Source: Maritalea porphyrae
GTDB lineage: Bacteria > Pseudomonadota > Alphaproteobacteria > Rhizobiales > Devosiaceae
Direction of reading: 5' to 3'
DNA length: 64,000 nucleotides
Assembly: GCF_030159895.1 (NCBI RefSeq)
Contig: NZ_BSNI01000002.1
Coordinates: 188,039-252,038, forward strand
Within the stretch, counting starts at the first letter, position 1. Each line of letters opens with the position of its first letter. Below the pieces are notes generated by a model, which worked only from the letters and a program-made list of their open reading frames with translations, was not told the DNA's origin and ran no database searches. This document shows positions 37,627-44,430 of the stretch, in pieces. The translations under genes and the position numbers were made by a program.

Positions 37627-38066
37627 TTCGCACCTTTGCGCCAACGATATAGCCGATCGGGGAGCTTTTCTTCATTCTCCCCGTCGGTCTCTTTTATCGC
37701 AACGAAACCATTCTTTTCATAAAAGGCGCGCGCCGCCCAGTTTTGCTGAAAACACCATAATTCAAGTGCGTCATGACGCGCTTTGGCATCATCAATCAGC
37801 CTTTGCCCAATCCCCTGCTGTCGCCTATCCGGATCAAGATAAAGGTGGGCAATCCAACCATCCAAATCCACAATAAACCCAACAACCTGCTCAGCTTCTT
37901 CTGCCAAGGTGATGCGACCGCGTACGTGCATTTCACGCATGTGCTTACGGTCTTCTTCTGGCGAATGAACTATTGGCAAAAATGGCAATGCAACTTGCCG
38001 CGAGCGCAAAAACAACTGCGCAATCGCTTCAATATCGTCCGAAGTAGCGATGCGCAGTTGAACCAA
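37623..38066 (-). CDS. GNAT-family N-acetyltransferase
   Basis: A 147-residue acetyltransferase. It contains the acetyl-CoA-binding motif A (AHLYLDPDRRQQGIGQRLIDDA) in the typical position and the ARAFYEKNGF motif B. The start appears to be TTG (38066), with GAGG 5 nt upstream; no in-frame ATG gives a complete domain. The substrate is unknown. Its stop codon overlaps the carbonic anhydrase stop in a shared CTAG. Confidence 0.9.
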   Translation of the reverse strand: MVQLRIATSDDIEAIAQLFLRSRQVALPFLPIVHSPEEDRKHMREMHVRGRITLAEEAEQVVGFIVDLDGWIAHLYLDPDRRQQGIGQRLIDDAKARHDALELWCFQQNWAARAFYEKNGFVAIKETDGENEEKLPDRLYRWRKGAN

Positions 38067-38105
38067 AATCGCCTCTTCCCTCAGCGTTTACGTTTCAGTT
38101 GATCA

Positions 38106-38134
38106 AAGAAAAAGGCCGGGCACAATGCCCGACC
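38106..38134 (-). terminator. Terminator after asd
   Basis: GC-rich hairpin, GGCCGGGCA against TGCCCGACC with one mismatch and a short loop, followed on the minus strand by TTTTTCTTT. It lies 30 nt past the asd stop, upstream of the GNAT gene. Confidence 0.85.
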
Positions 38135-38163
38135 TAATTTCGTTAGATTCTTTTTTAAAGCGC

Positions 38164-39201
38164 TTACGCAGCCTTAGTTAGCAAGCCGCGATTGATAATG
38201 CTTTCGGCGATCTGAATAGTGTTCAACGCCGCGCCTTTGCGTAAATTGTCTGAAACAACCCAGAGGTTCAAACCATTCTCTACCGTTGTATCCTCGCGGA
38301 TTCGGCTCACATAAGTAGCGTCTTCACCTGCCGCGTCAATCGGAGTGATATAGCCGCCATCTTCACGACTATCGACAACCATCACGCCTGGTGCTTCACG
38401 CAGAATGTCACGCGCCTCATCAGCTGTGATTTCATTTTCAAACTCAAGATTGACCGCTTCAGAGTGACCAACAAACACCGGCACGCGAACCGCTGTGCAT
38501 GTCACTTTGATTTTTGGATCGAGCATTTTCTTGGTCTCAGCCAAAACCTTCCACTCTTCTTTGGTGTATCCATCTTCCATGAACACATCGATATGTGGGA
38601 TCACGTTAAAAGCGATCTGTTTTGTGTAAACCTGCGGCTCCGGCATATCTGTTACATAGATGCCTTTAGTTTGGTTCCACAGTTCATCAGATGCTTCTTT
38701 GCCCGAGCCAGAAACAGATTGATATGTGGAAATTACAGCACGCTTGATCTTTGCTTTATCATGCAACGGCTTAAGCGCCACAACCAACTGAGCTGTCGAA
38801 CAGTTTGGGTTGGCAATGATGTTCATACGTTCATTTTTCGCCATATAGGCATCCAAAACATGCGCATTTACTTCTGGCACGATCAACGGCACATCTTGGT
38901 GATAACGCCAAGCTGAGGAGTTATCGATCACAAGGCAACCTTGCGCGCCGATTTTTGGCGCCCATTTTTCAGAAATTGATCCGCCTGCAGACATCAACGC
39001 AAAATCAACGCCGGTAAAATCAAAGTGCTGCAAATCTTTGCATTTGAGCGTCTTGTCGCCAAAAGACACTTCTCTGCCCACAGAACGTGAAGACGCTAGT
39101 GCGTAAACTTCATCGGCAGGAAAGCCACGTTCAGCCAAGATTGAAAGCATTTCGCGACCGACATTACCTGTCGCGCCGACAACCGCTACTTTGTAACCCA
39201 T
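38164..39201 (-). CDS. asd: Aspartate-semialdehyde dehydrogenase
   Basis: NADP enzyme converting aspartyl phosphate to aspartate semialdehyde, the branch point to lysine, threonine and methionine and to diaminopimelate for peptidoglycan. The nucleotide fold is VAVVGATGNVGREML and the catalytic cysteine is C134 (NPNCSTAQLV). The phosphate-site sequence SGSGKEASDELW is present. Length 345 is normal. AAGGA lies 9 nt before the ATG. A 230-bp leader region with hairpins separates it from the operon upstream. Confidence 0.97.
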   Translation of the reverse strand: MGYKVAVVGATGNVGREMLSILAERGFPADEVYALASSRSVGREVSFGDKTLKCKDLQHFDFTGVDFALMSAGGSISEKWAPKIGAQGCLVIDNSSAWRYHQDVPLIVPEVNAHVLDAYMAKNERMNIIANPNCSTAQLVVALKPLHDKAKIKRAVISTYQSVSGSGKEASDELWNQTKGIYVTDMPEPQVYTKQIAFNVIPHIDVFMEDGYTKEEWKVLAETKKMLDPKIKVTCTAVRVPVFVGHSEAVNLEFENEITADEARDILREAPGVMVVDSREDGGYITPIDAAGEDATYVSRIREDTTVENGLNLWVVSDNLRKGAALNTIQIAESIINRGLLTKAA

Positions 39202-39559
39202 AGTTCGTTGATCCTTGTCTCACCCCCCGCGCAACATTTGTTGTTGCGGCCGTCGCTTTGACCCTCCTCCCTGTCGGGGGAAAGCCCAGGGAAGACGGTT
39301 AAACGGTTTTGGTGGTGGTCTTTTTTGTTGTTGCAAGTGCAATCGCCACGCCACCGAAGGTTGGCATGGTCTTCATCTTCATCGCTGTCTTTTGCAAACC
39401 GCGCATCAAATGCTCACACATTGGTCAAAAAATAACTTTGCCTTTTCTAGCGGCAAAAGATGAAGAGTCAATAACACTTTTACCCTTATCAGTTCCGCCA
39501 ATCGCCATATTGGCGCGCAATTGCGGCAAATATGAGCTGGAAAACATCGCGGGGACTGA
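39202..39559. other. Gene-free region upstream of asd
   Basis: A 358-bp stretch without a convincing gene on either strand. The half near 39560 contains the terminator of the GDYXXLXY operon. The part near asd contains a 7-bp hairpin (CGCAACA/TGTTGCG, 39230-39248) in the probable 5' leader and a CCCTG/CAGGG pairing near 39270-39292. Another short hairpin (CGCCA/TGGCG) lies at 39503-39515. I recognise no known riboswitch. Confidence 0.5.
39426..39458 (-). terminator. Terminator of the DUF2157/DUF4401/GDYXXLXY operon
   Basis: Stem TTTGCC/GGCAAA with a 9-nt loop, followed on the minus strand by GTTATTTTTTG. It lies about 100 nt past the stop of the GDYXXLXY gene. Confidence 0.7.
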
Positions 39560-40069
39560 TCAGTTCCACCCAATTGTGTCGCGTGGATTGATCAACTCTT
39601 TTCCCTCATCCGCAAGTCCGCGCAATACATAGTCACGTCGATCCGCACCGTAAATCAACACTGCGTATTTTGCGTTTTCAAAATCGCCCCCCTCACCTTC
39701 TTGGAATAGAAAACTGTTGGGGACCAATGTCGGACGTGAAGACGTTTTTGTAAAATGCACCGCAAACTCATCATCGGCCAGTTTAGACTCATCATCAAGG
39801 CGCACAAATTGTGCAACCCCGTTCGCATCCTGCTTCACAATCGCAAACCCGGATCTGATTTTCTTGCCTTCAATTGAAGACCTGAGATCGTTTTCAACCT
39901 CAAACCCTAGCCGCATAAAGTCGCCTTGTAGCAAAGAACGCGGATCAACTGGGCGCAGTTCAAGGTAAATAGATGTCCCCTCAGCGATAACCTGCTCTTT
40001 TTGCACCACCCCAAAATTGAGCAGCCCAACAATCAAAACGCCAAAACCAAGCATCAACCAATTACGCAT
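39560..40069 (-). CDS. GDYXXLXY-domain protein, membrane-anchored
   Basis: A 169-residue protein with one N-terminal hydrophobic helix (about residues 4-22) and a presumably periplasmic beta-rich domain. The namesake motif appears as GDFMRLGF (residues 49-56), with the second conserved stretch GADRRDYVLRGLADEG near the C-terminus. The ATG at 40069 has GGAGG 6 nt upstream and overlaps the end of the DUF4401 gene by 8 nt. The family commonly occurs with DUF2157 and DUF4401 proteins; no function is established. Confidence 0.9.
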   Translation of the reverse strand: MRNWLMLGFGVLIVGLLNFGVVQKEQVIAEGTSIYLELRPVDPRSLLQGDFMRLGFEVENDLRSSIEGKKIRSGFAIVKQDANGVAQFVRLDDESKLADDEFAVHFTKTSSRPTLVPNSFLFQEGEGGDFENAKYAVLIYGADRRDYVLRGLADEGKELINPRDTIGWN

Positions 40070-41249
40070 TTTCAACCTCCAAGCTGGGGTTAAAGAAACG
40101 CGTCAGTACAAATCGAGCTGCCAAAATGAAGATGCCTGAACCCAAAAGCATGTAGCTTTTGGTCAACAAAATGACGTCGAGCGAAAAGTAGAAAAGGAAC
40201 AAATAGACCGGCAAATAGATCAAGCCAACGACCCACAGAACCTTGTCATGCCGCATATGCCCCAGCGCCATCAACGCAATCGCAAACAGCACGCCATGCA
40301 TACCCAAAACGGCTAGTATGACGATGCAACAAATCACAATCACATGCTCAAGCGATTTCAGCTTTTGCCAGCCACCGATAAGGAAAGCATAGATGGCCAA
40401 CGAAGCGGCAAATAAAATCAGAGCCAATCCCCAGTTGAAAGGGAGGTCTACCTCCTTCTTGGGAATGAAAAACCTGAATATCTGGTTGTCAGCGGGCAAC
40501 AGTTTGTACGCCAAAAACAACACGACCGCATATAAGTAGACTGAAGACAAATAGCGGCGCCTCTGCCAAAGAACCAATATCGCAGCAATCACAATGAGCG
40601 TCGCGACCGCCATTGTTACAACGAGCTCACTTGCGCGCCAAAACTCAAGTCTAAAAGCATCAGATGCATTATAAGCGGGCCAAGAACTGCCTTCTGGCAT
40701 CAAAAATTTCATCATTTGGATGCCGAATGCAGCATCCACCAAAAACAGTGAGACCAACACCGCTAAAAACGCTTCCAAATACATGCGGTAATAGACGCAC
40801 GACACAATGGTTATTCCGCTGAATATTATCGCAACAATCCATGCATCCGCCCTATCAAACGGCCACGTCTCAAACCAGCCAAATAGTGCCAAAAGCAAGC
40901 ACGCCTTACCCACCAGCAAGAGCGATAGATACAAAAGCCCTCTAAAACTATATTGCTTTTCTAGTGCCTTGTAGCCGTACCGAAATTTCCACGCCGAGAA
41001 AGCTGTGGCCAGCACCCCAATCGTGCCCACCACATGTTCCCAATTATCGCTCAATCCTAGAATGGCGATAAACCCGGCAATCGAAACGATAACCATGCCC
41101 AGAATGAAAAGCCCTGCGATCACCCGAATAATGATTGCAAAGATACCAAACTCACCATCTTTTCGCTTCGACGGACTTTGCCAAACTTCTTCGGAAAACG
41201 GCACGCCATATTTGCCAAGGCGGGTTATGGCTTGCTCCCGGCTAAGCAT
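40062..41249 (-). CDS. DUF4401-family multi-helix membrane protein
   Basis: A 395-residue integral membrane protein with a short soluble N-terminus (MLSREQAITRLGKYGVPF) followed by about eleven hydrophobic segments and short loops. It matches DUF4401. I start it at 41249, where AAGGAG lies 7 nt upstream; this gives an 8-nt overlap with the DUF2157 gene. The middle gene of a three-gene operon. It may be a transporter or a membrane scaffold. No catalytic motif is visible. Confidence 0.88.
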   Translation of the reverse strand: MLSREQAITRLGKYGVPFSEEVWQSPSKRKDGEFGIFAIIIRVIAGLFILGMVIVSIAGFIAILGLSDNWEHVVGTIGVLATAFSAWKFRYGYKALEKQYSFRGLLYLSLLLVGKACLLLALFGWFETWPFDRADAWIVAIIFSGITIVSCVYYRMYLEAFLAVLVSLFLVDAAFGIQMMKFLMPEGSSWPAYNASDAFRLEFWRASELVVTMAVATLIVIAAILVLWQRRRYLSSVYLYAVVLFLAYKLLPADNQIFRFFIPKKEVDLPFNWGLALILFAASLAIYAFLIGGWQKLKSLEHVIVICCIVILAVLGMHGVLFAIALMALGHMRHDKVLWVVGLIYLPVYLFLFYFSLDVILLTKSYMLLGSGIFILAARFVLTRFFNPSLEVENA

Positions 41250-42291
41250 TCTCGTTCTCCTTTGCAGGTATTCCGACAAACTCGTGCAAGTTCAAAAACT
41301 TGATCCCGCCCCAGAAAATGCCGGCCACAACAGCCGCCATGAACAGGCCACCAAACAGCAGTCCGCCATCACCCCAATCAAAGATCCATTCAGCAAACAA
41401 GATTAAGAAAATGGTTGAAGTCAAAATTGAACTGATGAGCGTCCAAATTTGCGCCGAAACAAGATTGCGGAACAAACGGAACGCAAAATAATAGCCCAAA
41501 GCGTGAAGCACTATGCCAATTAGGCCTGCAATATCCTGCAAACGTCCATCAAATGGATCGCTATATATATTAAGTCCATAACGCAGTTTGAATATCCAAG
41601 CGCCAACTAGAAATGCGGTGAGCGTAAGGGAATAGAACAGCCAAATCCAAGAGAACCATTTATGTGCTGTCCAGCCCTTGGGATGTTTTTGAGCGTGAAA
41701 TGACTGCACCCCAAAAGCAAGCAATCCGACAATGGCGAGCGGCACATCAATTTCAAACCCATCCCCTACGGTTTGAACCCAAATTGCGACCATAAAGATA
41801 TGGGCGATCACCAGCCACAAGGTCCAATGCGCAAGCGATTTCGACAAGATCGCCCAGGGCAATATCAGGATCGCCCACATCATGAACAATTGATAGGCGT
41901 CGGCCCCCGTTTGATAAATCTGGCCAAATACGGCCATGAAGACGCCAACAAAAAGACTAGCGCCAATCGCCAGCGCTTGACCCGCAACACTGTCCAACCC
42001 ACGCACCAATGCAGCGACAAGGCAGGTGACGAGCCCAAGATTGATCAACCCAAGCTTTTGCCAGCCCGGCATTTCGCGCCAGTTAAAAGCAAAGAAAAAG
42101 ACAATTCCGGCAAGGACGAGTATGACGCCGACAACTAAGCTGAGTTTATCGGCCCACAGCCCCCATAGATTGCGCGGCGCAATCAATTGAAGCAAATGTT
42201 GCATTCCCGCGCGCGGCAGTTTGCCTTCACGGTATAATTGGTCCAAATCGCCTTCAGTCAGAGGCGCATCAAAATCTACTGTTTTCGTCAT
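41242..42291 (-). CDS. DUF2157-family membrane protein
   Basis: A 349-residue protein with a soluble N-terminal segment of DUF2157 type (TEGDLDQLYREGKLP followed by LWADKLSLVVGVILVLAGI) and about nine to ten membrane helices. The first gene of DUF2157-DUF4401-GDYXXLXY. The chosen ATG (42291) directly follows the T-run of the leuB terminator and has no ribosome-binding site of its own. An in-frame TTG at 42306, inside the terminator loop, has AAGGG about 12 nt upstream. Start choice is therefore uncertain. Confidence 0.85.
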   Translation of the reverse strand: MTKTVDFDAPLTEGDLDQLYREGKLPRAGMQHLLQLIAPRNLWGLWADKLSLVVGVILVLAGIVFFFAFNWREMPGWQKLGLINLGLVTCLVAALVRGLDSVAGQALAIGASLFVGVFMAVFGQIYQTGADAYQLFMMWAILILPWAILSKSLAHWTLWLVIAHIFMVAIWVQTVGDGFEIDVPLAIVGLLAFGVQSFHAQKHPKGWTAHKWFSWIWLFYSLTLTAFLVGAWIFKLRYGLNIYSDPFDGRLQDIAGLIGIVLHALGYYFAFRLFRNLVSAQIWTLISSILTSTIFLILFAEWIFDWGDGGLLFGGLFMAAVVAGIFWGGIKFLNLHEFVGIPAKENENA

Positions 42292-42320
42292 AAAAAAGGG
42301 CACCAATAAATGATGCCCTT
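42292..42320 (-). terminator. Terminator after leuB whose T-run touches the next start codon
   Basis: Stem AAGGGCA/TGCCCTT, extended by imperfect pairing, with a short loop and followed on the minus strand by six T residues and then directly ATG. It ends the leuB transcript about 30 nt past the stop. Confidence 0.85.
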
Positions 42321-42352
42321 ATTAAGAACCGGAAATGAACTCGGTGCAAGAC

Positions 42353-43450
42353 TTAGAGCTTGGCGATAATCGCGTCGCCCATTTCTGAAGTAGATACCTT
42401 CTTGCAACCGTCCTGCATGATGTCGCCTGTGCGCAATCCTTCATCCAAAACTGATGCAATGGCACCTTCAACTTTGTCCGCTAGCTCGACCATCTCAAAC
42501 GAATAACGCAAGGCCATGGCAAAACTGGCGATCATCGCAATTGGGTTGGCCATGCCTTGGCCAGAAATGTCAGGCGCAGAACCATGCACCGGTTCGTACA
42601 ACGCTTTGCGCTTGCCAGTTGTCGCATCAGGTGCACCCAAAGAAGCCGACGGCAACATACCCAAAGAACCGGTCAGCATCGCTGCGGCGTCGGACAAAAT
42701 ATCGCCGAACAAGTTGTCAGTCACAATCACGTCAAATTGCTTTGGATTGCGCACCAATTGCATCGCGCAATTGTCCGCAAGAATGTGATCAAGCTGAACA
42801 TCCTTATATTCATTGGCGTGAATTGCACTCACCACTTCATGCCACAAAACGCCGGATTTCATCACATTGCGTTTTTCTGAAGAATGCACACGATTATCGC
42901 GGGTTTTGGCCAGGTCAAACGCTACACGCGCAATCCGCTCAATCTCATAAGTCTCGTAGACTTGTGTATCGATTGCGCGCTTTTGGCCATTTCCTAGGTC
43001 GTGAATTTCCTTTGGTTCACCAAAATAAACGCCACCGGTAAGCTCACGCACAATCAAAATGTCCAAGCCTTCAACGACTTCGCGTTTCAGCGAAGAACCG
43101 TCGGCCAATGCTGGATAGCAAATCGCAGGGCGAAGATTGGCAAACAAACCCATATCTTTGCGCAAGCGCAACAAGCCCGCTTCAGGGCGAACTTCGTAAG
43201 GCACATCATCCCATTTTGGGCCGCCAACCGCACCAAATAAAACAGCATCGGCGGCAAGTGCTTTGGCCATGTCTTCTTCGGAAATAGCAACACCATGCGC
43301 ATCATATGCAGACCCACCAACAAGTCCTGTGTCGGTAGCAAAGTCGGACTGACCAGATGCATTGAGATGCGCAATCAGCTTTTCAACTTCCGCCATGATT
43401 TCAGTGCCGATCCCGTCGCCGGGCAACAAGAGTAGATTTTGCTGTGCCAT
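42353..43450 (-). CDS. leuB: 3-isopropylmalate dehydrogenase
   Basis: NAD-dependent oxidative decarboxylase of leucine biosynthesis, 365 residues. The family start [16 protein letters not shown], the substrate-binding [16 protein letters not shown], and the metal-binding [28 protein letters not shown] region are present. It is near asd and leuD but separated from both by accessory genes. A terminator follows. Confidence 0.98.
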
Positions 43451-43535
43451 GTTGGTGCCTATCTATAACAATTCAATTTGTCGCTTTGCTACGCGTTCAA
43501 ACCTGAGCTGACAAGGCTTTGAGCGTCAAAAACGT

Positions 43536-43949
43536 CTAGATATATATGATCCAAAAGATGTAGAGGGCCGCCAAACTATCAACTATGGCGCACATGGGTG
43601 GATACCATGCCACCACCTTCACGCCGACGTCGGTTCGATGTTTAATCCAGTCCCAAACTGCGTGAACAATTAATCCTACGCCAATCAACCATGGAGCGAA
43701 AACAAGCCCAAACAACGCAAGTCCAAGCGTTATTACAGCTGCACCGCCTTCCCACAACGCATCCACCAAAGCAACGCGTTGCGCCAACAATATGGCAGGA
43801 TAAACCGTTGCGATCGCAACAAGAATAGCAGCCGCGAGCTCTATTTTATGCGATGGAAATAGCAGATGGGTCAGCGTTATCAATAGCGCCAAAGTTACCG
43901 CGCCAACAATGTTGCCTTGCAGCGTAAACGATCTCTTGTCTTCATGCAT
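43536..43949 (-). CDS. Small multi-helix membrane protein, possibly DUF6010-like
   Basis: A 137-residue protein with four or five hydrophobic helices and CGGAG 6 nt before the ATG. The motif HAVWDWIKHRTDVGVK and the later PPMCAIVDSLAALY resemble the conserved HxxWD and CAxxD positions of DUF6010 proteins; this resemblance is from memory and is weak. It is transcribed with or near the next membrane gene (61 nt apart). Function unknown. Confidence 0.7.
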   Translation of the reverse strand: MHEDKRSFTLQGNIVGAVTLALLITLTHLLFPSHKIELAAAILVAIATVYPAILLAQRVALVDALWEGGAAVITLGLALFGLVFAPWLIGVGLIVHAVWDWIKHRTDVGVKVVAWYPPMCAIVDSLAALYIFWIIYI

Positions 43950-44010
43950 ATTTTGCTCCGTTACGTTTTACCTTCGCAACAAAGCTGTAATGTTTACGGG
44001 AACTGGAAGG

Positions 44011-44430
44011 TCAACGACGCCAAATTGCCGCGGCCAAGTGCAAACCGCCAATCCCCAACGCAGAAAGGCTGAAAATGAAGTCTCGAAGCTGTGGCACCTC
44101 GCCGTCTGATGCCAAAGTGTATCCACCAAGCTGGAAAAAGATCAAACAGCCTCTCAGCACGAAGACGCAACCAATGGCAATGACCAAGTACCGCGCAAGC
44201 CCCGACAGCTTCCGTCCGGTTCCAGCCCAATAGGTAACAAGCGCCCAAATCAAGAACACAGTTGAAACAAAGGCCGTCAACAAAGCTGGCCAACTTTCAC
44301 CATTTGTGTCCGCCTCAGCCATAACCCGACCTGCACGTAAAAATAGATAGGCTGGTTCACCAATGAAGATTGCCGCAACATGCAGCAAAAACAAAATCAG
44401 GTCAGCGAGGGCTGCGAGTAAATACAACAT
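44011..44430 (-). CDS. Small four-helix membrane protein of unknown function
   Basis: A 139-residue protein with four hydrophobic helices (about 3-25, 47-68, 80-101 and 115-135). Charged loops include an FLRAGRVMAEADTNGES segment. GAGGTGAT lies 8 nt before the ATG. The first helix carries HVAAIFIGEPAY. I do not recognise the family. It shares orientation with the neighbouring membrane-protein gene. Confidence 0.72.
   Translation of the reverse strand: MLYLLAALADLILFLLHVAAIFIGEPAYLFLRAGRVMAEADTNGESWPALLTAFVSTVFLIWALVTYWAGTGRKLSGLARYLVIAIGCVFVLRGCLIFFQLGGYTLASDGEVPQLRDFIFSLSALGIGGLHLAAAIWRR

Follow-up and report, generated by a model that had tools for sequence, protein, structure and literature searches.

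An operon of DUF2157, DUF4401 and GDYXXLXY genes in Maritalea porphyrae and a candidate split-subunit model for a probable, uncharacterised membrane complex

Introduction

Among the closest described systems are those of the LiaI-LiaF-TM type (PSP/Lia). LiaF has four transmembrane (TM) helices and a Toastrack domain (DUF2154/DUF4097), and a survey of PSP/Lia systems applies the name DUF2157 to its N-terminal TM helices (PMC11237479). By contrast, the DUF2157 protein analysed here has 10 predicted TM helices, matched only PF09925 and lacks a Toastrack domain, and its operon includes no PspA, kinase or regulator partner. The family DUF2339 (PF10101) gave a weak match in one of 73 DUF2157 relatives (E = 0.02), which is not significant and serves as a lead only. 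Although GDYXXLXY is widespread (about 13% of the class sample and 18% of the phylum sample), literature searches by family name, accession or COG returned only passing mentions, namely the use of the name DUF2157 in that survey, an expression table (PMC9848294) and a study in which a GDYXXLXY protein of Fusobacterium co-purified with FtsX and EnvC (PMC5915739). Here we describe a DUF2157-DUF4401-GDYXXLXY operon found in a window of 64,000 nucleotides, i.e. the whole stretch of DNA that was analysed (assembly GCF_030159895.1, contig NZ_BSNI01000002.1, positions 188,039 to 252,038).

Results

Layout of the operon and its overlapping junctions

The three genes lie at the positions given in the earlier note, on the minus strand, which the note had left unstated, and each product scored above the Pfam curated cut-off:

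41242 to 42291, minus strand: DUF2157 gene, 349 aa, 10 predicted TM helices, N and C termini predicted to be cytoplasmic (PF09925, E = 7.5e-24, 84.5 bits, cut-off 32.4).
40062 to 41249, minus strand: DUF4401 gene, 395 aa, 12 TM helices in modelled relatives, N and C termini predicted to be cytoplasmic (PF14351, E = 2e-13, 50.9 bits, cut-off 30.4).
39560 to 40069, minus strand: GDYXXLXY gene, 169 aa, predicted N-terminal signal anchor (one TM helix) followed by a predicted extracytoplasmic beta-rich domain (PF14345, E = 4.6e-25, 88.6 bits, cut-off 27).
41242 to 41249, minus strand: DUF2157/DUF4401 overlap, ATGCTTAG, 8 nt.
40062 to 40069, minus strand: DUF4401/GDYXXLXY overlap, ATGCGTAA, 8 nt.

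The operon is flanked by leuB upstream and asd downstream, with a GNAT acetyltransferase gene and small membrane-protein genes also nearby in the window. Gene order and overlapping junctions are those usual for this gene set. The operon is ordinary-looking, made up of families that are known but uncharacterised. The window copy is divergent, with a median identity to relatives of 18% for DUF4401 and 35% for GDYXXLXY, and the motif that gives the latter family its name reads GDFMRLGF.

Both internal junctions measured 8 nt, as claimed before, and the sequence ATGCGTAA arises because the encoded protein starts with Met-Arg-Lys/Asn. Relatives were sampled as the best 80 of at least 590 matches to the GDYXXLXY protein, a query biased towards the three-gene subtype. 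Nearly all junctions of these 80 loci overlap or touch, the commonest overlap being 4 nt (30 and 25 junctions), followed by 8 nt (15 and 10 junctions) and then by 11 and 14 nt. The combination 8/8 recurred in only one of the 80 distant loci (L148), and the two congeners carrying the operon have overlaps of 11/8 and 8/1 nt as against 8/8 in the window. The tight coupling of the junctions is thus conserved, and the equality of the two overlaps is a matter of chance and uninformative on stoichiometry; the proposal that equal overlaps reflect a fixed stoichiometry was rejected.

The operon is gained or lost as a unit within the genus

Three of six genomes of the genus carry the operon, each time between leuB and asd. 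In the other three, asd comes directly after leuB, separated from it by only about 320-350 nt, and this clean empty site indicates that the operon can be dispensed with and is acquired or lost as a whole. It also diverges faster than its neighbours: within the genus, DUF4401 is 53-68% identical, compared with 93-95% for LeuB. In dN/dS comparisons synonymous sites were saturated, and they support no more than a general statement of purifying selection. An Rfam search over positions 38000-44000 gave no match. Two further elements border the operon:

42292 to 42320, minus strand: terminator-like hairpin AAGGGCATCA...TGGTGCCCTT with a T run, abutting the DUF2157 start codon.
39299 to 39382, minus strand: short Thr/Lys-rich ORF, MKMKTMPTFGGVAIALATTKKTTTKTV, followed by GC-rich inverted repeats, ahead of asd (38164-39201).

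The hairpin stem is kept in the two operon-bearing congeners and absent from the three without the operon. Because the T run abuts the start codon, there is no space for a normal Shine-Dalgarno sequence after the hairpin, and either read-through or the masking of GGTG may provide control. The short ORF has Thr/Lys-rich counterparts in five congeners and is a candidate attenuator leader peptide for asd, a reading suggested by its composition and by the asd pathway making Lys and Thr. Upstream of leuB lie two small membrane-protein genes (43536-43949 and 44011-44430, minus strand), one weakly DUF6010-like and one that matched nothing in Pfam; the two have relatives near leuB in congeners that lack the operon. 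The same genome also encodes another LeuB-like dehydrogenase, only distantly related (37% identity, G000:C2:914272-915327).

The three families occur together and are fused in several lineages

The 80 loci, the best of at least 590 relatives, come from Alpha-, Beta- and Gammaproteobacteria, Bacteroidota, Fibrobacter, Planctomycetota, Verrucomicrobiota and Campylobacter- and Bdellovibrio-type bacteria, and the order DUF2157-DUF4401-GDYXXLXY on one strand is kept across them. DUF2157 was present in 75 and DUF4401 in 78 of these 80, some of the absences being due to contig ends. GDYXXLXY was also found in Bacteroidota, Fibrobacter, Planctomycetota, Fusobacterium and the archaeon Methanosarcina. 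Among 240 evenly sampled genomes of the class, 32 contained GDYXXLXY, 45 DUF2157 and 13 DUF4401. In line with the co-occurrence that had been put forward for these families, DUF2157 accompanied GDYXXLXY in 31 of the 32 genomes (expected 6, P = 5e-27), and all 14 genomes of the phylum sample with an above-cut-off DUF4401 also had GDYXXLXY. DUF2157 without a detected GDYXXLXY was seen in 14 of the 240 class genomes, mostly as weak matches, and one of these (G310) does carry a divergent GDYXXLXY partner. Independent occurrence in most genomes, named earlier as evidence against a complex, was found for neither GDYXXLXY nor DUF4401; DUF2157 stood alone in some genomes.

Neighbouring genes of the set are also fused in frame: DUF4401-GDYXXLXY in 11 of the 80 best-matching loci and in L163 and L164, and DUF2157-DUF4401 in L161, L162, Duffyella gerundensis (740 aa) and Acinetobacter baumannii (593 aa).

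Two variants of GDYXXLXY were noted. A third, short subtype (~140-170 aa, GYDPRDLLSGHY...FYVPE; loci L165, L028, L031-L033 and L064) is barely detected or missed by the Pfam model, which also missed the G310 copy, and at locus L025 a single 320-aa frame encodes one GDYXXLXY protein in which two separate stretches match.

Conserved residues are predicted to face outwards

The AlphaFold2 model of DUF2157 has 10 long helices (pLDDT 84, pTM 0.75), and the model of a natural DUF4401-GDYXXLXY fusion (L142, pLDDT 86) has 12 helices, the GDYXXLXY anchor and then a beta-rich domain, the GDYXXLXY part spanning residues 366-517; all models are of single chains. Mean Lys+Arg counts alternate along the DUF4401 loops, fitting cytoplasmic N and C termini, and DUF2157 follows a similar but weaker positive-inside trend. 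Apart from a short N-terminal helical stretch, no cytoplasmic domain was found, nor was a conserved acidic pair or other transporter signature in the membrane helices. The most conserved positions are as follows:

42079 to 42084, minus strand: Asn-Trp pair of the N-core, N70-W71 of DUF2157, predicted extracytoplasmic end of TM1; invariant in 73 sequences.
41899 to 41925, minus strand: N-core motif GQIYQTGAD, DUF2157 residues 123-131, predicted extracytoplasmic end of TM3; G123, Q124, Y126 and A130 invariant in 73 sequences.
40134 to 40190, minus strand: C-core motif YFSLDVILLTKSYMLLGSG, DUF4401 residues 354-372, predicted extracytoplasmic TM11-TM12 turn; conservation of Y354 0.99, L361 1.00, K364 0.99 and G372 0.96 in 72 sequences.
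39908 to 39952, minus strand: conserved PVDPRSLLQGDFMRL motif, GDYXXLXY residues 40-54; P40, D42, P43, R44, S45, Q48, G49 and D50 invariant in 80 sequences.
39695 to 39715, minus strand: SFLFQEG motif, GDYXXLXY residues 119-125; F122 and G125 invariant, E124 0.97.

Judged from the predicted helices and positive-inside counts, the conserved motifs of all three proteins are predicted to map to the extracytoplasmic side.

A two-gene form and the partition of motifs between DUF2157 and DUF4401

Many genomes of the class contain a two-gene form in which a long DUF2157 protein (about 370-470 aa) is directly followed by GDYXXLXY and DUF4401 is missing; this form is frequent in the class and also elsewhere in the order. 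It shares with the window operon the N-core motif, the C-core motif, the anchored outer partner and the tight coupling, but differs in having one membrane protein instead of two, with DUF4401 not matched at the Pfam cut-off. The N-core pattern ([GAS][QH]x[YF][QHN], GQxYQ) was present in all 73 short DUF2157 and all 21 long DUF2157 proteins and in none of 72 DUF4401 proteins. Conversely, the C-core pattern (Yx5[TSG]LL, YxxxxxTLL) was found in 0 of 73 short DUF2157, 13 of 21 long DUF2157 and 48 of 72 DUF4401 proteins, counts obtained with a simple regular expression that misses one third of DUF4401 and long DUF2157.

Profile comparison with hhalign aligned the last 72-75 residues of long DUF2157 with the end of DUF4401 (E = 1.2e-8; E = 3.8e-10 with all long DUF2157 proteins against the DUF4401 C-terminus), and one long-DUF2157 subtype aligned with DUF4401 over its full length (E = 9e-8), the best of the reversed and block-shuffled controls reaching 0.002. 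DUF4401 and short DUF2157 aligned in register over their N-terminal halves, with a weak score (E = 9.4e-5, probability 59%; best controls 0.023 shuffled and 0.005 reversed). Domain-only profiles missed the relation, which was found with full-length profiles. These comparisons support a common ancestry of DUF2157 and DUF4401, which look like the specialised halves of one ancestral protein, and the partition of motifs is the pattern expected if a duplicated subunit loses complementary parts. On this sequence evidence, we consider a history of duplication and split probable. The complementary losses would imply a heteromer whose two proteins each contribute one half of the former single protein's share.

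That the three membrane proteins act separately and merely share a co-regulated operon is very improbable: DUF2157 does at times occur without the other two, but both neighbouring pairs are fused in several lineages, the two homologous subunits have lost complementary motifs, and a two-gene equivalent exists. Fixed gene order in the 80 loci (the best of at least 590), co-occurrence, both types of fusion and the motif split together lend strong support to the earlier suggestion of one membrane complex, and the three genes very probably encode one obligate inner-membrane complex.

Functional leads and alternative roles

Sequence and fold searches of Pfam, NCBIfam, PDB sequences and PDB folds turned up no relative whose structure or function is known; the best Foldseek E-values were 0.37 and 0.55, the outer domain being covered only within the fusion chain. 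No recurrent genomic partner emerged from 60 same-strand neighbours, which were scattered, with at most four sharing any family. A signal-peptidase-like fold, which the GD motif resembles, was unsupported by sequence search, and in the fold search the signal of the membrane part prevailed. Searches of PADLOC, PHROG and viral carriage, directed at a viral or anti-phage defence role, gave no match.

One alternative is a membrane-embedded enzyme, in which the polar and aromatic motifs of all three proteins would form a catalytic site that modifies a glycan or lipid of the envelope. GDYXXLXY would serve as the outer subunit, either catalytic or binding the acceptor, an arrangement comparable to the pairs of polytopic and anchored periplasmic proteins in MBOAT systems. 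The strictly invariant polar residues, predicted to be extracytoplasmic in all three proteins, are consistent with such a role, and the sporadic, dispensable distribution suits an accessory envelope modification. The lack of any enzyme-family match in the four databases named above argues against it, as do the neighbours, which as a rule are not envelope-biosynthesis genes, and the presence in Methanosarcina would limit such an enzyme to molecules common to archaea. We regard this role as unlikely.

Comparably unlikely is a sensor or adaptor of envelope state, in which GDYXXLXY would sense outside and the membrane pair would relay to another protein in a LiaI/LiaF-like manner. The use of the name DUF2157 for the TM part of LiaF and the co-purification with FtsX and EnvC cited above point in this direction, and three of the 60 scanned neighbours are histidine kinases. 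However, the proteins have no cytoplasmic output domain, their invariant residues are predicted to lie outside and not in cytoplasmic loops, no kinase, regulator, PspA or Toastrack gene recurred among the 60 neighbours, and no PspA, PspC or LiaRS partner lies next to the operon in the window.

Discussion

We propose that DUF2157 (10 TM) and DUF4401 (12 TM) both derive by divergence from a single long protein of the DUF2157 type and that, after duplication, DUF2157 would have retained the N-core site (NW, GQxYQTGAD) and DUF4401 the C-core site (YYxLxxxLLxKS). We infer that the two may pair as a pseudo-heterodimer that shares a single composite site on its extracytoplasmic face. GDYXXLXY, anchored by its single helix, would dock over this face and place two conserved loops there (PxDPRSxxQGDY and FFFQEG), acting either as a lid or as a binding subunit. 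The module would most probably bind a molecule of the envelope, be it an ion or a ligand of lipid or glycan type, and move or modify it in an ATP-free manner. Its polytopic architecture, the lack of an ATPase or cytoplasmic output domain and the restriction of conserved residues to the outside would favour such handling of envelope ligands over cytoplasmic signalling. Ligand transport or flipping as the actual activity is put forward tentatively. Taken as a whole, the account of an obligate complex with duplicated and split subunits, a composite outer site, a GDYXXLXY lid and ligand handling seems to us evenly poised between right and wrong.

New here are the two-gene form and the subunit-split model, which is testable: the motif partition points to residues to mutate and makes a clear prediction, a heterodimer with one composite site, so that a long-ignored system becomes accessible to experiment. 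With slightly less assurance than the account as a whole, we suggest that these genes may represent a membrane machine, widespread and so far undescribed, that works on the extracytoplasmic side and whose membrane fold has no match. It would exist in a two-gene form built on identical membrane subunits and in a three-gene form in which the subunit, once duplicated, was split into two proteins with complementary half-sites.
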